From NCBI GenBank assembly GCA_027018875.1, contig JALUYA010000038.1, positions 1 to 43,865 on the forward strand: a stretch of DNA of 43,865 nt, given 5' to 3'. Source of the stretch: Gammaproteobacteria bacterium. Its GTDB lineage: Bacteria > Pseudomonadota > Gammaproteobacteria > JAKDMP01. Of this stretch, positions 50 to 8,006 are shown in pieces; position 1 is the first letter of the stretch; each line of letters begins with the position of its first letter. The notes below the pieces were generated by a model. The model saw only the letters and a list, made by a program, of their open reading frames with translations, did not search any database and was not told the DNA's origin. The position numbers were made by a program, and so were the translations under genes.

Positions 50-120
50 CCCCGATTACTCCGTGCAGCAGAAATCCATAACGCGTATTATCCCAAATCA
101 GGGGAATTAATCAGAGCTTA
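1..120. mobile_element. end of an IS5-type insertion sequence (partial)
   Basis: The transposase start at 49 is followed by about 70 non-coding bases. They end in AATTAATCAGAGCTTA at 105-120, which on the other strand reads TAAGCTCTGATTAATT. That resembles the terminal inverted repeats of some IS5-group elements, but the partner repeat is outside the window and no target duplication can be confirmed. The boundary near 120 is therefore an estimate. I see no gene between 121 and 300; that stretch is AT-rich at first and then carries pyrimidine runs. Confidence 0.45.
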
Positions 121-300
121 CTTAGATATATAGACGAGACCTTCTCGTAAGAATCCATTACTGTGAACATTTTGACTTCTGATTAGCGCGACATCCCCTT
201 GTGCTAGATAAACTTTACTTCCTCCTCTAGGTGTCGCACCACTCCCGACTTTTGAACAGGCATTTCCAAGCTTGACTGTAGACCACTTCCCCCCCATCCC

Positions 301-624: not shown

Positions 625-1037
625 AATCCGGTGTGCCCCCTGAGCTGTTCGTACAGGGCGGTAGCATCTCGGATGAAATCTTCCATGCGTGCCAACGCTT
701 TCTGGGCCTTTTCGCCGCTGTAGTCGTGGGCGGTGTCAACCCGAAGGTTGGCGTACTCGATCCAGTCCTCCATGGAGCCGGGCAATAGGTGATTTTCGTA
801 GGCTAGGCGAAAGATGGGTTTGGGACTGTTGGGTACCTCGGGAACGCCCAATTCCTCCGAAAGATAGCGCTTTAACACTTTCCACAGGCAGTCATACAGG
901 GTTTCAAAGCGCTGAATTACCGACTCAGCTACTGCTTCTTGTAGCAAGTCGGGCAAGGCAGTATCCAAAGAGCGGTAATTCTCGAACTGTGCTTGCAGGT
1001 GGCGAAGCGCTTTTTCAAATTTGCTGTAGTCGATCAT
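621..1037 (-). CDS. HEPN-domain protein, HI0074-type nucleotidyltransferase partner (toxin-like)
   Basis: A 138-residue protein of the HI0074 group (nucleotidyltransferase substrate-binding, HEPN fold). It contains FETLYDCLWKVLKRYL in the middle and NLRVDTAHDYSG in the C-terminal half. The latter gives the R-x4-H motif (RVDTAH) that forms the RNase site in active HEPN toxins. It is translationally coupled to the MNT gene downstream. Its ATG (1037-1035) overlaps the TGA of a short remnant that reads like the C-terminus of HsdM ([11 protein letters not shown]), so the gene looks as if it was once coupled directly to an hsdM. Toxin activity is an inference from the motif and pairing. Confidence 0.85.
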   Translation of the reverse strand: MIDYSKFEKALRHLQAQFENYRSLDTALPDLLQEAVAESVIQRFETLYDCLWKVLKRYLSEELGVPEVPNSPKPIFRLAYENHLLPGSMEDWIEYANLRVDTAHDYSGEKAQKALARMEDFIRDATALYEQLRGHTGL

Positions 1038-1087
1038 AACTCTTTCCCAAATCTCAGCCCCTCCAGATTCTTCTTGATGGTGGTTTC
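1034..1087 (-). pseudogene. remnant of an hsdM 3' end
   Basis: Read on the reverse strand, these bases encode [17 protein letters not shown] and then a stop. The first 11 residues ([11 protein letters not shown]) equal the tail of the full hsdM at 1584-3206. Positions 1058-1087 are identical, base for base, to 1602-1631. The remnant has no start and no upstream part. It sits between the ygiT-like gene, whose stop codon lies inside it, and the HEPN gene, whose ATG overlaps its stop. It is best read as the other half of a duplicated insertion site. Confidence 0.75.
1058..1087. repeat. direct repeat, copy 1 (30 bp, hsdM tail)
   Basis: Thirty bases identical to 1602-1631 in the same orientation. 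The match continues imperfectly for a few bases beyond 1087. The two copies bracket the DUF4258/YgiT gene pair almost exactly, which is the arrangement left by insertion into, or recombination at, the hsdM 3' end. Confidence 0.9.
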
Positions 1088-1310
1088 AAGCCGCATAACG
1101 CAGCACTTCCAGCTCGGCGTTGCGTTCGAGGGCTTTTTCCGCCTGTTCATAGAGCCGCCGGGTGGTCTGTTCGTCGAGGTAGTATTCCCCGCATTGGGTG
1201 CATACCTGGGCGGGGACCTCCTTGACGAGCAGGACGGTCGAGCCGCGTTCCAGGGTGACAGTGACCTTGCCGGGCGCGGTTTCTCCGGTTTTGCAGATGA
1301 TGCATTTCAT
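1086..1310 (-). CDS. YgiT-type zinc-finger protein (antitoxin-like partner of DUF4258)
   Basis: A 74-residue protein beginning [10 protein letters not shown], with CxxC at residues 3-6 and a second CxxC in AQVCTQCGEYYLDE. This is the paired-cysteine zinc site of YgiT/MqsA-type N-terminal domains. The usual C-terminal DNA-binding domain of MqsA is absent, which is normal for the short YgiT-type proteins that accompany DUF4258 or MqsR-like proteins. The internal ATG at 1310 is chosen because it starts the zinc site and overlaps the DUF4258 stop by 4 bp (1307-1310). An antitoxin role is inferred from pairing. Confidence 0.8.
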   Translation of the reverse strand: MKCIICKTGETAPGKVTVTLERGSTVLLVKEVPAQVCTQCGEYYLDEQTTRRLYEQAEKALERNAELEVLRYAA

Positions 1311-1594
1311 GGTGATTTCCTCCGTTTGAATGTCCCGTCCCATTGTCCGGGGTCGGGGCGATAGACGGTCACGATCCAGCAGACGCGGCTTTCCTCGTCC
1401 CGCGCCAACACCAGATGGATCGGCTGCTCTTGCCAAAATCCGAGCAGCAGCCAGGCGGGATAGGGCTGCTCGTCGGGGTAGTGGTGGATGATCTCCCCCT
1501 CCCGCGCCACATGAAAGACGGCTTCTGGTGGTATACGGCGTTCGAACATGCGCTTGAAGGCATGTTTGGAGAGCTGGATGTCACTACAATCCAT
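1307..1594 (-). CDS. DUF4258 protein (toxin-like)
   Basis: A 95-residue protein with the DUF4258 pattern: an early [18 protein letters not shown] segment (H, R and E residues on a predicted helix), then [20 protein letters not shown], then a strand-rich end with [21 protein letters not shown]. The fold is related to RelE/BrnT-like small toxins, and genes of this family are commonly found next to YgiT-type zinc proteins, as here. Its ATG lies inside the 3' end of hsdM (11-bp overlap, 1584-1594), so it is probably translated from the hsdM transcript. Toxicity has not been shown and is inferred. Confidence 0.8.
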
Positions 1595-3206
1595 AACCCA
1601 ACCCCTCCAGATTCTTCTTGATGGTGGTTTCCAGCTCGCGGCTCTTGTCGAACTGCCCGTAGAGCTGTGCGGTCAGCTCCGCCATCTTCTCCTCGAAGGG
1701 CACGCCGTCGTCCTTCACGGCTTCGGCGCCCACATAGCGGCCCGGAGTGAGCACATAGCCATGCCCCTTGATGTCTTCCAGCGTCGCGGATTGCCACCAG
1801 CCGGGCTTGTCTTCGTATTCACCGCCTTCGCTGCGCCAGGCATGATAGACACCGGCGATGGTGTCGATCTCTTCCGGGGTCAGTTCCCGGTGCACCCGGT
1901 CCACCAGTCGGCCCATGCGGCGGGCGTCGATGAAAAGCGTCTCGCCGCTGCGGTCGCGGAGGGTTATCCCCTCACCCCCGGCCCCTCTCCCGGAGGGAGA
2001 GGGGGGAACTGGGTCGGCCCCGTTCCTGGAGGGAGAGGGGAGCTTACGGGCGTTCTTGTTGCGGGTGAGGAACCAGAGACAGACGGGGATCTGGGTGGTG
2101 TAGAAGAGCTGGCCCGGCAGGGCAATGATGCAGTCCACCAGGTCGTCCTCGATGATCCCCTTGCGGATGGCCCGCTCGGCGTTGGTGGCGGTGGACATGG
2201 AGCCGTTGGCCATGACGAAGCCGGCGATGCCGTTGGGGCCGAGGTGGTGGATGAAGTGCTGGATCCAGGCGTAGTTGGCGTTGCCCGCCGGCGGCACGCC
2301 GTATTTCCAGCGCACATCTTCTTTCAGGCGCTCGCCGCCCCAATCGGACATGTTGAAGGGCGGATTGGCGAGGATGGTGTCGGCCTTCAGATCCTTGTGC
2401 AGATCGTTGTGGAAGCTGTCGGCCTGGTGGGGGCCGAGGTCGGCGTCGATGCCGCGGATGGCCAGGTTCATCCGGGCCAGCTTCCAGGTGGTGGGGTTGG
2501 ACTCCTGCCCATAGATGGCGATGTCGCCCAGCCTGCCGCCGTGCTCCTCGACGAACTTTTCGCTTTGCACGAACATGCCGCCGGAACCGCAGCAGGGGTC
2601 GTACACGCGGCCCTTATAGGGCTCGATCATCTCCACCAGCAGTTGCACTACGCACTGGGGGGTGTAGAACTCGCCGCCGCCCTTGCCTTCGGCGGCGGCA
2701 AAGTGGCCGAGGAAATATTCGTAGACCCGGCCCAGCGGGTCCCTGACACCGGATTCCCTGGCCTTCAGGTCGATGTCGCCCACCAGCTTGACCAGCTCGC
2801 CAAGGCGGGTCTTGTCCAGGGTGGGCCGGGAGTAGTCCTTGAGTAGCACGCCCTTGAGGCTGGGGTTTTCCCGCTCGATGGCGGTCATGGCCTCGTCGAT
2901 CACCTTGCCGATGGTGGGCTGGGGCGCCTGGGCCTGGATCTGTTCCCAGCGGGCCTCGGGCGGCACCCAGAAGATGTTGTCGGCCAGATATTCGTCCCGG
3001 TCTTCGGGGTCGGTGTATTCCGTCTCCGCCGTGGCGGCCAGCTCGTCATACTTGTGCTGGAAGGCGTCGGAGATATATTTGAGAAAGATCAGCCCCAGCA
3101 CCACGTGTTTGTATTCCGAGGCGTCCATATGGCCGCGCAGCTTGTCGGCCATCTCCCACAGCTTGCTCTCGAAGCCGAGATTGGCGCCGTTATTGGTCTT
3201 GCTCAT
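1584..3206 (-). CDS. hsdM: type I restriction-modification N6-adenine methyltransferase subunit HsdM
   Basis: A 540-residue DNA adenine methyltransferase subunit. Visible features are the N-terminal helical domain ([14 protein letters not shown]...), AdoMet motif [11 protein letters not shown] near residue 203 and the catalytic NPPFN near residue 281. GGGAGGAAGG precedes the ATG. An extra stretch of about 28 residues (near 387-415, rich in P, S and G) interrupts the conserved NKNARK...[14 protein letters not shown] segment and is encoded by a GC-rich palindromic repeat; the frame stays open. No hsdS or hsdR lies in the window: downstream come two toxin-antitoxin-like pairs and an IS5 end. HsdM alone cannot choose a target, so it is either an orphan or works with subunits encoded elsewhere. 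Confidence 0.93.
1602..1631. repeat. direct repeat, copy 2 (30 bp, inside hsdM)
   Basis: This is the copy inside the intact hsdM reading frame, encoding [10 protein letters not shown]. It is identical to 1058-1087. The distance between copies is 544 bp, and deleting one repeat plus the spacer would join hsdM directly to the HEPN gene with an ATGA overlap. Confidence 0.9.
1964..2045. repeat. GC-rich palindromic repeat inserted in frame in hsdM
   Basis: The stretch contains CCCCTCTCCC followed by GGAGGGAGAGGGG (around 1983-2005) and a second, weaker GGAGGGAGAGGGG half near 2028-2040. This is the style of dispersed palindromic repeats known from many proteobacterial genomes. It translates on the hsdM strand as a low-complexity P/S/G/R insert with no place in the family alignment. 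The length keeps the reading frame, so the methyltransferase may still fold with an exposed loop. Confidence 0.7.
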
Positions 3207-7325: not shown

Positions 7326-8006
7326 CTAAAAAAATGCATGCTTATTGCCCGGGTTGGGGAAAATGGTTGAGGATAAAGCCGGGCGCAAGCCATAAATCCC
7401 GCCTTGTTCTCTCGATTTTCCAGGGGGAGGTGAGATGAATCCGAGCGTTGGGCAAGGGCGTAACCCGGAGCGGCCTGGTTTGCCTTGCCGGTTGTTCAGC
7501 CACGGGGGTATAGCGGCGAGTTGTCGGCGGCGTTGCCCGGTGAGTTCGGTGGTCAGCGCAAGCCGGTAAGCGGCGAGATCCGTGCTCAAGGCCCGGGCGA
7601 TCGCGCTTTTTTTGAGGCGGGGGCGCTGTTGCGACACCAATCGATCCAGGCGGATTCGGGCCTTTTCCTGGTGACTGTCGGCCACCACGGGGAGGGCACC
7701 GGCTGGTTTCCGGCGGAATTGCCGGGCGAGTTCTTTGGTTACCGCAAGCCGGTAAACGGCGAGATCCGTGCTCAAGGCCCGGGCGATCGCGCTTTTTTTG
7801 AGGCGGGGGCGCTGTTGCGACACCAATCGATCCAGGCGGATTCGGGCCTTTTCCCGGTGACTGTCGGCCACCACGGGGAGGGCACCGGTAGGCTGCCGGC
7901 GGTGTTGTCCGGCGGGTCCGGCGAGCATCGTTGAAGTGGAGAGCAGGGGAGCGGCTGAAGTTGCATTCAGGGCGAGGATAAGAGGCAGTAGGAGGGGAAT
8001 AGGCAT
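7326..8006 (-). CDS. secreted tandem-repeat protein, unknown family
   Basis: A 226-residue protein with a predicted signal peptide (MPIPLLLPLILALNATSAAP). Two 62-residue repeats follow, each with ALPVVADSH-(R/Q)-EKARIRL, DRLVSQQRPRLKKSAIARAL and STDLA-YRLA-T-EL; they look basic and helical. The last 65 residues are low-complexity with no recognisable fold and may be poorly constrained. I do not recognise the repeat family. The strand is chosen because it has a signal peptide, a strong promoter (TTGACT-16-TATACT) and a palindromic operator over the -10; an opposing frame also reads through the repeats but has none of these. Confidence 0.65.
   Translation of the reverse strand: MPIPLLLPLILALNATSAAPLLSTSTMLAGPAGQHRRQPTGALPVVADSHREKARIRLDRLVSQQRPRLKKSAIARALSTDLAVYRLAVTKELARQFRRKPAGALPVVADSHQEKARIRLDRLVSQQRPRLKKSAIARALSTDLAAYRLALTTELTGQRRRQLAAIPPWLNNRQGKPGRSGLRPCPTLGFISPPPGKSREQGGIYGLRPALSSTIFPNPGNKHAFF
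7561..7746. repeat. tandem repeat unit 1 (186 bp)
   Basis: The first of two direct 186-bp units inside the secreted protein gene. Over its first 142 bases it differs from the next unit at only two positions that I can see, so the duplication is recent or kept uniform. Confidence 0.85.
7747..7932. repeat. tandem repeat unit 2 (186 bp)
   Basis: The second unit, encoding the N-terminal protein repeat on the reverse strand. Its last 44 bases diverge from unit 1, which marks the edge of the recent duplication. Confidence 0.85.

Follow-up and report, generated by a model that had tools for sequence, protein, structure and literature searches.

Defence genes cluster, and little is understood of how a gene or a pair of genes can join an operon of tightly coupled genes and leave it intact. 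This question is raised by a type I restriction-modification locus at one end of contig JALUYA010000038.1 from a gammaproteobacterium (assembly GCA_027018875.1), the whole of which, 43,865 nucleotides (nt) long, we call the window. In this locus the 3' end of hsdM, the gene for the methylase subunit, occurs twice, and a predicted toxin-antitoxin (TA) pair lies between the copies. An original prediction, made from the sequence alone, proposed that a small defence cassette had entered at the hsdM tail and duplicated it, that a pair of HEPN and minimal nucleotidyltransferase (MNT) genes was already present, and that the tail acts as a landing site. Our analysis makes it fairly likely that the pair was carried in behind an hsdM end, and that the resident tail was kept as a start region and as a short relay open reading frame (ORF).

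All of the window genes concerned are on the minus strand. The intact hsdM (1584-3206) is predicted to encode a protein of 540 aa with N6_Mtase (6e-103) and HsdM_N (1e-26) Pfam domains, called MTase_I by PADLOC. Direct comparison confirmed that positions 1602-1631 and 1058-1087 are identical at 30 of 30 bases, and the repeat lengthens to 45 nt at 89% identity (1591-1635 and 1047-1091). The right copy is the native end of this hsdM and contains the motif GGAGGGG ahead of the start of a gene for a toxin-like DUF4258 protein (1307-1594; PF14076, 1.9e-18), the ATG of which lies inside the hsdM end with an 11-nt overlap. This gene in turn overlaps by 4 nt a gene for an antitoxin-like YgiT/MqsA-type zinc-finger protein (1086-1310; PF15731, 5e-7, just over the cut-off; TIGR03831 YgiT_finger, 7.6e-14), an adjacency like that in predicted DUF4258/MqsA-type TA modules. 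No other gene lies between the copies. The left copy is a remnant of hsdM with its stop on the ATG of a HEPN gene (TTATGATC). On the identity of the two copies, their origin and the genes between them, the original prediction was borne out. It had not described that the left copy sits within an ORF of 20 codons (1034-1096), which we call the relay ORF. The ATG of the relay ORF overlaps the YgiT stop by 11 nt (TATGCGGCTTGA) and its TGA overlaps the HEPN ATG. The HEPN gene (621-1037) encodes a nucleotidyltransferase substrate-binding protein of the HI0074 family (PF08780, 5e-24; TIGR01987 over the cut-off) and is followed by the MNT gene (301-624; PF01909, 8e-11; PF18765). In the organism's own genome (2.2 Mb, 54 contigs), the 30-mer with up to three mismatches was found only at the two window sites, and a reversed-pattern control gave no match.

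We compared this arrangement with a collection of 227 hsdM loci (numbered L), including the window. The loci came from reference genomes (the best 80 of 576 HsdM relatives), the window's phylum, class and one family, a cyanobacterium's phylum, plasmids (4) and viral contigs (31); sampling was non-random, and a few loci are incomplete or their hsdM end is uncertain (L053, L227 and L290 among them). Recurrence of a gene's own tail 0.06-5 kb downstream of it, at a cut-off score of 45, was seen for 19 of 217 testable hsdM genes, 7 of 174 hsdS genes and 5 of 362 other ORFs. When the window is set aside, hsdM compares with other ORFs at 18/216 versus 5/362 (p 7e-5). Among the five matches from other ORFs, those in L048, L053 and L042 resemble paralogs or repeats, that in L143 resembles a short repeated motif, and the fifth is in L222. 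A first control with ORFs of both strands gave 8/554 versus 13/129 for hsdM. The window's left copy had an own-tail score of 65 and a weak match to a hidden Markov model (HMM) of the tail (6.7 bits, E 0.21). When the minus strand was scanned as a control for the HMM, the best match was below 1 bit in three scans and 7.7 bits in a fourth (L277), above the HMM score of the window remnant; the L277 match spans nearly the whole tail and is perhaps a real hsdM end. Because this control reached 7.7 bits, the case for short remnants is built on the own-tail test and position, not on the HMM alone.

Four loci (L245, L246, L270 and L160) were added through the tail HMM, blastn or inspection, giving 23 remnant loci including the window, of which L270 and L160 have weak remnants. 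They come from cyanobacteria, Planctomycetota, the window's own phylum, archaea and one viral contig. Weak HMM matches in L100, L099, L040, L171, L172, L181, L208, L214, L277, L250, L263, L289, L255 and L236 were left uncounted. Two candidates were dropped: L167, and L274, which has a relay-type start and by eye is the C-terminus of a HEPN-like cargo protein. An exact 24-base part of the window repeat had no match in viral contigs. On Escherichia coli chromosomes, a related hsdM-hsdS-hsdR stretch matched 945 of 5,426 genomes (434 over at least 80%), and among the 60 matches listed only insertion sequences were named as extra genes in the longer ones, with no case of a remnant.

The gene directly behind the remnant is hsdS in 12 of the 23 loci (L034, L044, L045, L051, L098, L158, L161, L179, L240, L245, L270 and L279); in the others it is HEPN (the window and L241), ORF6N (L187 and L160) or another ORF, or the contig ends. 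The cargo ahead of the remnant is diverse. A DUF4258/YgiT pair is present in the window, L051, L245 (where the DUF4258 match is split over two frames) and L246 (where the finger protein is 34% identical to that of the window). Other cargo includes a DUF1016/YhcG nuclease (L034, L044, L045 and L267), RhuM (L187 and L206, and by eye from its neighbours L158), ORF6N (L158 and L098, and by eye from its neighbours L161), KilA-N (L160), AlbA/Schlafen with HATPase_c_4 (L061 and L144), an IS200-like transposase (L058), Hypoth_Ymh (L179), a HepT-like protein (L279), an IrrE-type protein with DUF4411 (L240), HEPN with MNT (L270), and HEPN ahead of the remnant (L241). Thus, many loci carry other content between two hsdM tails, as had been predicted, and the same construction with other cargo suggests that the hsdM-hsdS junction is a recurrent entry point. 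As for the landing site, the original prediction was largely right about the place and wrong in detail about the process. In L241 (+4321 to +4569) the relay ORF resembles, by eye, the first ~30 MNT codons joined to the hsdM tail, followed by HEPN. Separately, hsdS 3' ends seem to be repeated after cargo or a short gap in L077, L144, L272 and L269, the last just below the cut-off. In L040 (3482-4621), about 32 codons near the end of what is by eye an aminotransferase-like gene recur at +1172, just upstream of hsdM, as though the hsd locus had entered at the end of that gene.

Across the 227 loci, hsdS is directly behind hsdM in 102, and in 92 of these its start is no later than the last base of the hsdM stop. 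Genes lie between hsdM and hsdS in 89 loci, 20 of them with a remnant, and no hsdS was recognised in 36, including the remnant-bearing window, L034 and L058. An hsdS ATG was usable in 77 of the 102; where there were several in-frame ATGs, the one nearest offset -8 was chosen, which favours starts near the stop, and on this basis hsdS starts at offset -11, within GlyTyrGly codons, in 55 of 77. The anti-Shine-Dalgarno energy before hsdS had a median of -7.0 kcal/mol (n=77), versus -2.1 in random windows inside hsdM, and reached -5 in 78% versus 16%. The placement of the start together with these energies indicates that the hsdM end usually doubles as the start signal for the next gene. The corresponding values in the remnant loci, ahead of whichever gene follows, lie between -10.5 (L270) and -0.9 (L187).

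The relay frame was assessed in the 19 of 23 remnant loci with a definable plus-strand cargo stop, leaving aside L144 and L240 (tail fused to the cargo protein), L256 (decayed, with a larger hsdM fragment) and L160 (frameshifted hsdM, 24-nt remnant). In 16 of 19, a start in the remnant's frame overlaps the cargo stop, 4, 8 or 11 nt before its end, and the frame is open through the remnant. The other two frames of the same loci gave 0 of 38, about half being closed by the cargo's own stop. At ORF ends in these loci the background was 453 of 2853 frames, or 453 of 1902 (24%) when the ORF's own frame was excluded, and 16/19 exceeds the 24% background at p 5e-8. Redundancy was considered for the junction-sharing pairs L158/L161 and L044/L045 only; without one of each pair the count is 14/17 (p 6e-7, stricter background). 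For L044 versus L045, dN/dS is 0.33 in the remnants and 0.35 in the intact tails (55 codons), and in comparisons that left out the window, where the alignment was out of register, it is below 0.4 between intact and remnant copies in L044, L045, L051, L158, L161 and L187. The relay ORF is good as sequence geometry, less so in loci recognised later, and from this geometry we infer a putative function.

Comparable empty and occupied sites are present in family f72, where L194 is empty and L158, L187 and L161 are occupied. Over the first 45 nt past the stop, the remnant in L158 agrees with the empty L194 at 37 positions and with the intact tail of the same locus at 16. That intact tail agrees with L195 (hsdM-RhuM-hsdS) at 45 positions, and the remnant in L187 agrees with the intact L161 tail at 37. 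The cargo of L161 is a decayed ORF6N cassette only; in L187, RhuM is wedged ahead of the ORF6N cassette with the remnant at the seam. Within this family L156 is also without cargo, and L143, L162 and L195 have cargo and no recognisable remnant. In the archaeal loci L044 and L045, the same tail copy and the same leader follow DUF1016 proteins that are only 34% identical, and the intact hsdM ends match at 146 of 165 nt. Cassettes are thus gained or swapped at the hsdM end, and the remnant runs on into the gene that formerly followed hsdM.

The order of events in the window can be judged in part from HEPN genes elsewhere. A HEPN match lies within 2.5 kb behind hsdM in 17 of 135 other loci, and MNT alone in one more, so HEPN behind hsdM without the extra pair is common. 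With starts called mechanically, a 4-nt overlap links the hsdM stop to the HEPN ORF in L059 (GTGA), L155 (ATGA) and L168 (TTGA). This supports the idea that HEPN-MNT was there first, which for this genome is likely; in L270, HEPN/MNT is itself the cargo ahead of a tail copy. In many of these loci, including L059, L108 and L183, ORF length and position suggest that the MNT downstream of HEPN forms one protein with HsdS, at its N-terminal end.

Several observations weigh against a kept tail that works as a relay. No recognised remnant is present in 69 of the 89 loci with intervening genes, and hsdS already overlaps the preceding stop in 38 of these 69, so the tail is not required. Shine-Dalgarno energies are modest in the window (-4.2) and weak in L051, L158 and L187 (-2.4 to -0.9). 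The relay was first noted by eye in the initial set, where it was present in 12 of 12 loci, and the test is hence partly post hoc; the seven testable loci recognised later gave 4/7 (p 0.06, or 0.015 with the looser background). The first relay start in L245 is 21 nt past the stop, and L246 and L279 have none at the stop. The remnant in the window has hardly diverged and so may just be recent, and no close relative of the window locus lacking the pair was found. The ends of hsdS recur too, with a difference between hsdM and hsdS of p 0.10, so that hsdM is not clearly special within the operon.

A rival explanation is a passive scar, in which homologous or illegitimate recombination at hsdM leaves functionless pieces of tail that are heading for loss. 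Both the many cargo loci without a remnant and the lower relay count in the loci found later fit a scar, as do the eroded or gap-located remnants of L256, L160, L279 and L246. A scar would not be expected to hold the relay frame so far above its background, to place its start overlap at the downstream gene, or to have a dN/dS in L044 and L045 like that of intact tails, though that ratio comes from 55 codons only. We consider a passive scar rather unlikely, and favour a tail kept for the next gene.

How the tail came to be doubled can be judged from the remnants themselves. They start ~15 to 57 codons before the stop, and that of L160 is 24 nt long. As the match of its remnant among the collected tails, the locus's own intact tail ranks 55 in L245, 152 in L246, 34 in L270 and 23 in L098, ranks that are less firm for L270 and L098 because these remnants are short. 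Such remnants fit other hsdM lineages better and thus resemble the ends of earlier resident hsdM genes. In the window, the closest collected tail is that of its own hsdM, suggesting that the source and resident hsdM were alike. The variable lengths and the matches to other lineages argue against both a fixed-core attachment site, which we rejected since remnant starts differ between loci, and a transposon target-site duplication of fixed length, rejected as well. Duplication of the tail by cassette entry, as first proposed, is not in keeping with these remnants; an incoming hsdM end plus cargo joined into the resident hsdM tail appears to fit them better.

Site-specific integration of a mobile cassette with the hsdM 3' end as attachment core, like islands that rebuild gene ends, was considered as well. 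In its favour, gene ends are well-known targets of integration, the cassette is enclosed precisely by direct repeats, and related f72 loci carry differing cassettes. Yet there is no integrase or other recombinase between the window repeats, where both genes are accounted for as DUF4258 and YgiT, and the right junctions of the window, L245, L051 and L246 differ for the same TA type. With remnants of such variable start and lineage, we regard this route as improbable. That a remnant is kept for a useful HsdM C-terminal peptide, for example one binding HsdS or HsdM, is very improbable: an amino-acid motif is conserved among remnants and the intact-versus-remnant dN/dS is low in the six loci named above, but the leaders are unrelated and of any length, remnant lengths differ, L144 and L240 fuse the tail to a cargo protein, and the low dN/dS may partly predate insertion.

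A parallel for the doubling is homology-facilitated illegitimate recombination, a process that would yield a partial repeat of its anchor. The likeness lies in one homologous anchor and one end-joined side; the difference is that here the process is deduced from its products. On the reading that we favour, the DUF4258/YgiT pair would have entered a type I operon arranged as hsdM-HEPN-MNT-hsdS. It most likely arrived behind an hsdM 3' end, by recombination within hsdM on one side and end-joining among the final codons of the resident gene on the other, and the resident's last ~15 codons would have stayed behind the cassette. The tail would have been kept because translation of the next gene is initiated within the hsdM 3' end, which usually supplies a Shine-Dalgarno sequence and a start codon. 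The intact tail ahead of the cassette would then start DUF4258, and the remnant would be translated as the 20-codon relay ORF, which ribosomes would enter at the YgiT stop and leave at the HEPN start. Such a relay would keep HEPN-MNT-hsdS coupled to hsdM, if its translation occurs and matters as we suppose from the junctions.

A wider reading would make the hsdM 3' end a portable port for recombination and translation, because it codes at once for a conserved protein segment and for the signal that starts the following gene. Defence cassettes in many phyla would enter, pile up and swap among repeated hsdM tails through ordinary recombination with no need of an integrase, each adding a relay ORF that feeds hsdS. 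We put this forward tentatively, as possible rather than probable. A gene end with such a double role, retained when cargo arrives, gives a simple testable rule, which is to look for repeated hsdM tails. These offer a way to find the cargo of type I loci, including obscure pairs, and to order additions in time, and they raise the question of whether cargo expression is tied to HsdM.

Downstream of MNT, a probable hsdS 5' end (118-297, minus strand; recognised by eye in translation) stops after 59 codons at the end of a multicopy repeat (1-124), probably an insertion element, with 11 matches in the genome, five of them at 99-100% identity including the window. This element at the contig edge probably interrupts hsdS. 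Another contig of the same genome, C12, opens with part of a Methylase_S domain (PF01420, matched on C12 only) in an ORF that also has a DUF559 domain, followed by genes for an IrrE-type protein, DUF4411, a Fic protein and HsdR (C12:4748-7966; HSDR_N, 4e-52; T1RH-like_C, 5e-141). C12 appears to continue the window operon, and the original gene order was probably hsdM-HEPN-MNT-hsdS ... hsdR. The IrrE/DUF4411 pair of C12 is also the cargo of L240, between hsdM and the tail copy. The HEPN protein of the window, of the PF08780/HI0074 type, had no PF01934 match, and its MNT scored 40.7 bits against the MntA equivalog model, under the cut-off of 60, which places the pair outside HepT/MntA type VII. 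Within hsdM there is a palindromic repeat pair in frame (1979-2040), and alignments of relatives often break near HsdM residues 388-416, in the palindrome stretch, as if in-frame insertions were tolerated there. Elsewhere in the window, an ORF at 7326-8006 has an internal repeat with a period of 62 residues.

Among the titles and abstract openings listed for hsdM/hsdS, cargo and coupling, a scope with subscription journals mostly outside it, none dealt with repeated hsdM tails, and novelty is provisional. In the parts of the report available to us, the overlap and translational coupling of hsdM and hsdS are described for EcoKI (PMC3510504), and a duplicated HsdM C-terminal tail is postulated there solely as one stage in a proposed evolution of type IB enzymes. 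EcoKI and the window are alike in the overlapping stop/start junction between the methylase gene and the next gene; the window differs in having this junction twice, with cargo between. DUF4258 is listed as a RelE/ParE-superfamily toxin family with activity 'Unknown', and DUF4258-MqsA fusions have been counted, in the portion seen of PMC11980606, where the table row for them reads 'A/T'. The window has the same combination of DUF4258 with an MqsA-type partner, but as separate genes with DUF4258 first, and its activity is predicted only. Accessory genes embedded in type I loci have been described, among them PrrC in EcoprrI and rloA/rloB in Campylobacter jejuni (PMC12707154, PMC2928727; excerpts). 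These resemble the window in having defence genes or genes of unknown role among the hsd genes, and the excerpts mention no hsdM-tail remnant or relay ORF for them. Unlike these loci, the window carries as its cargo a DUF4258/YgiT pair placed between hsdM and HEPN.

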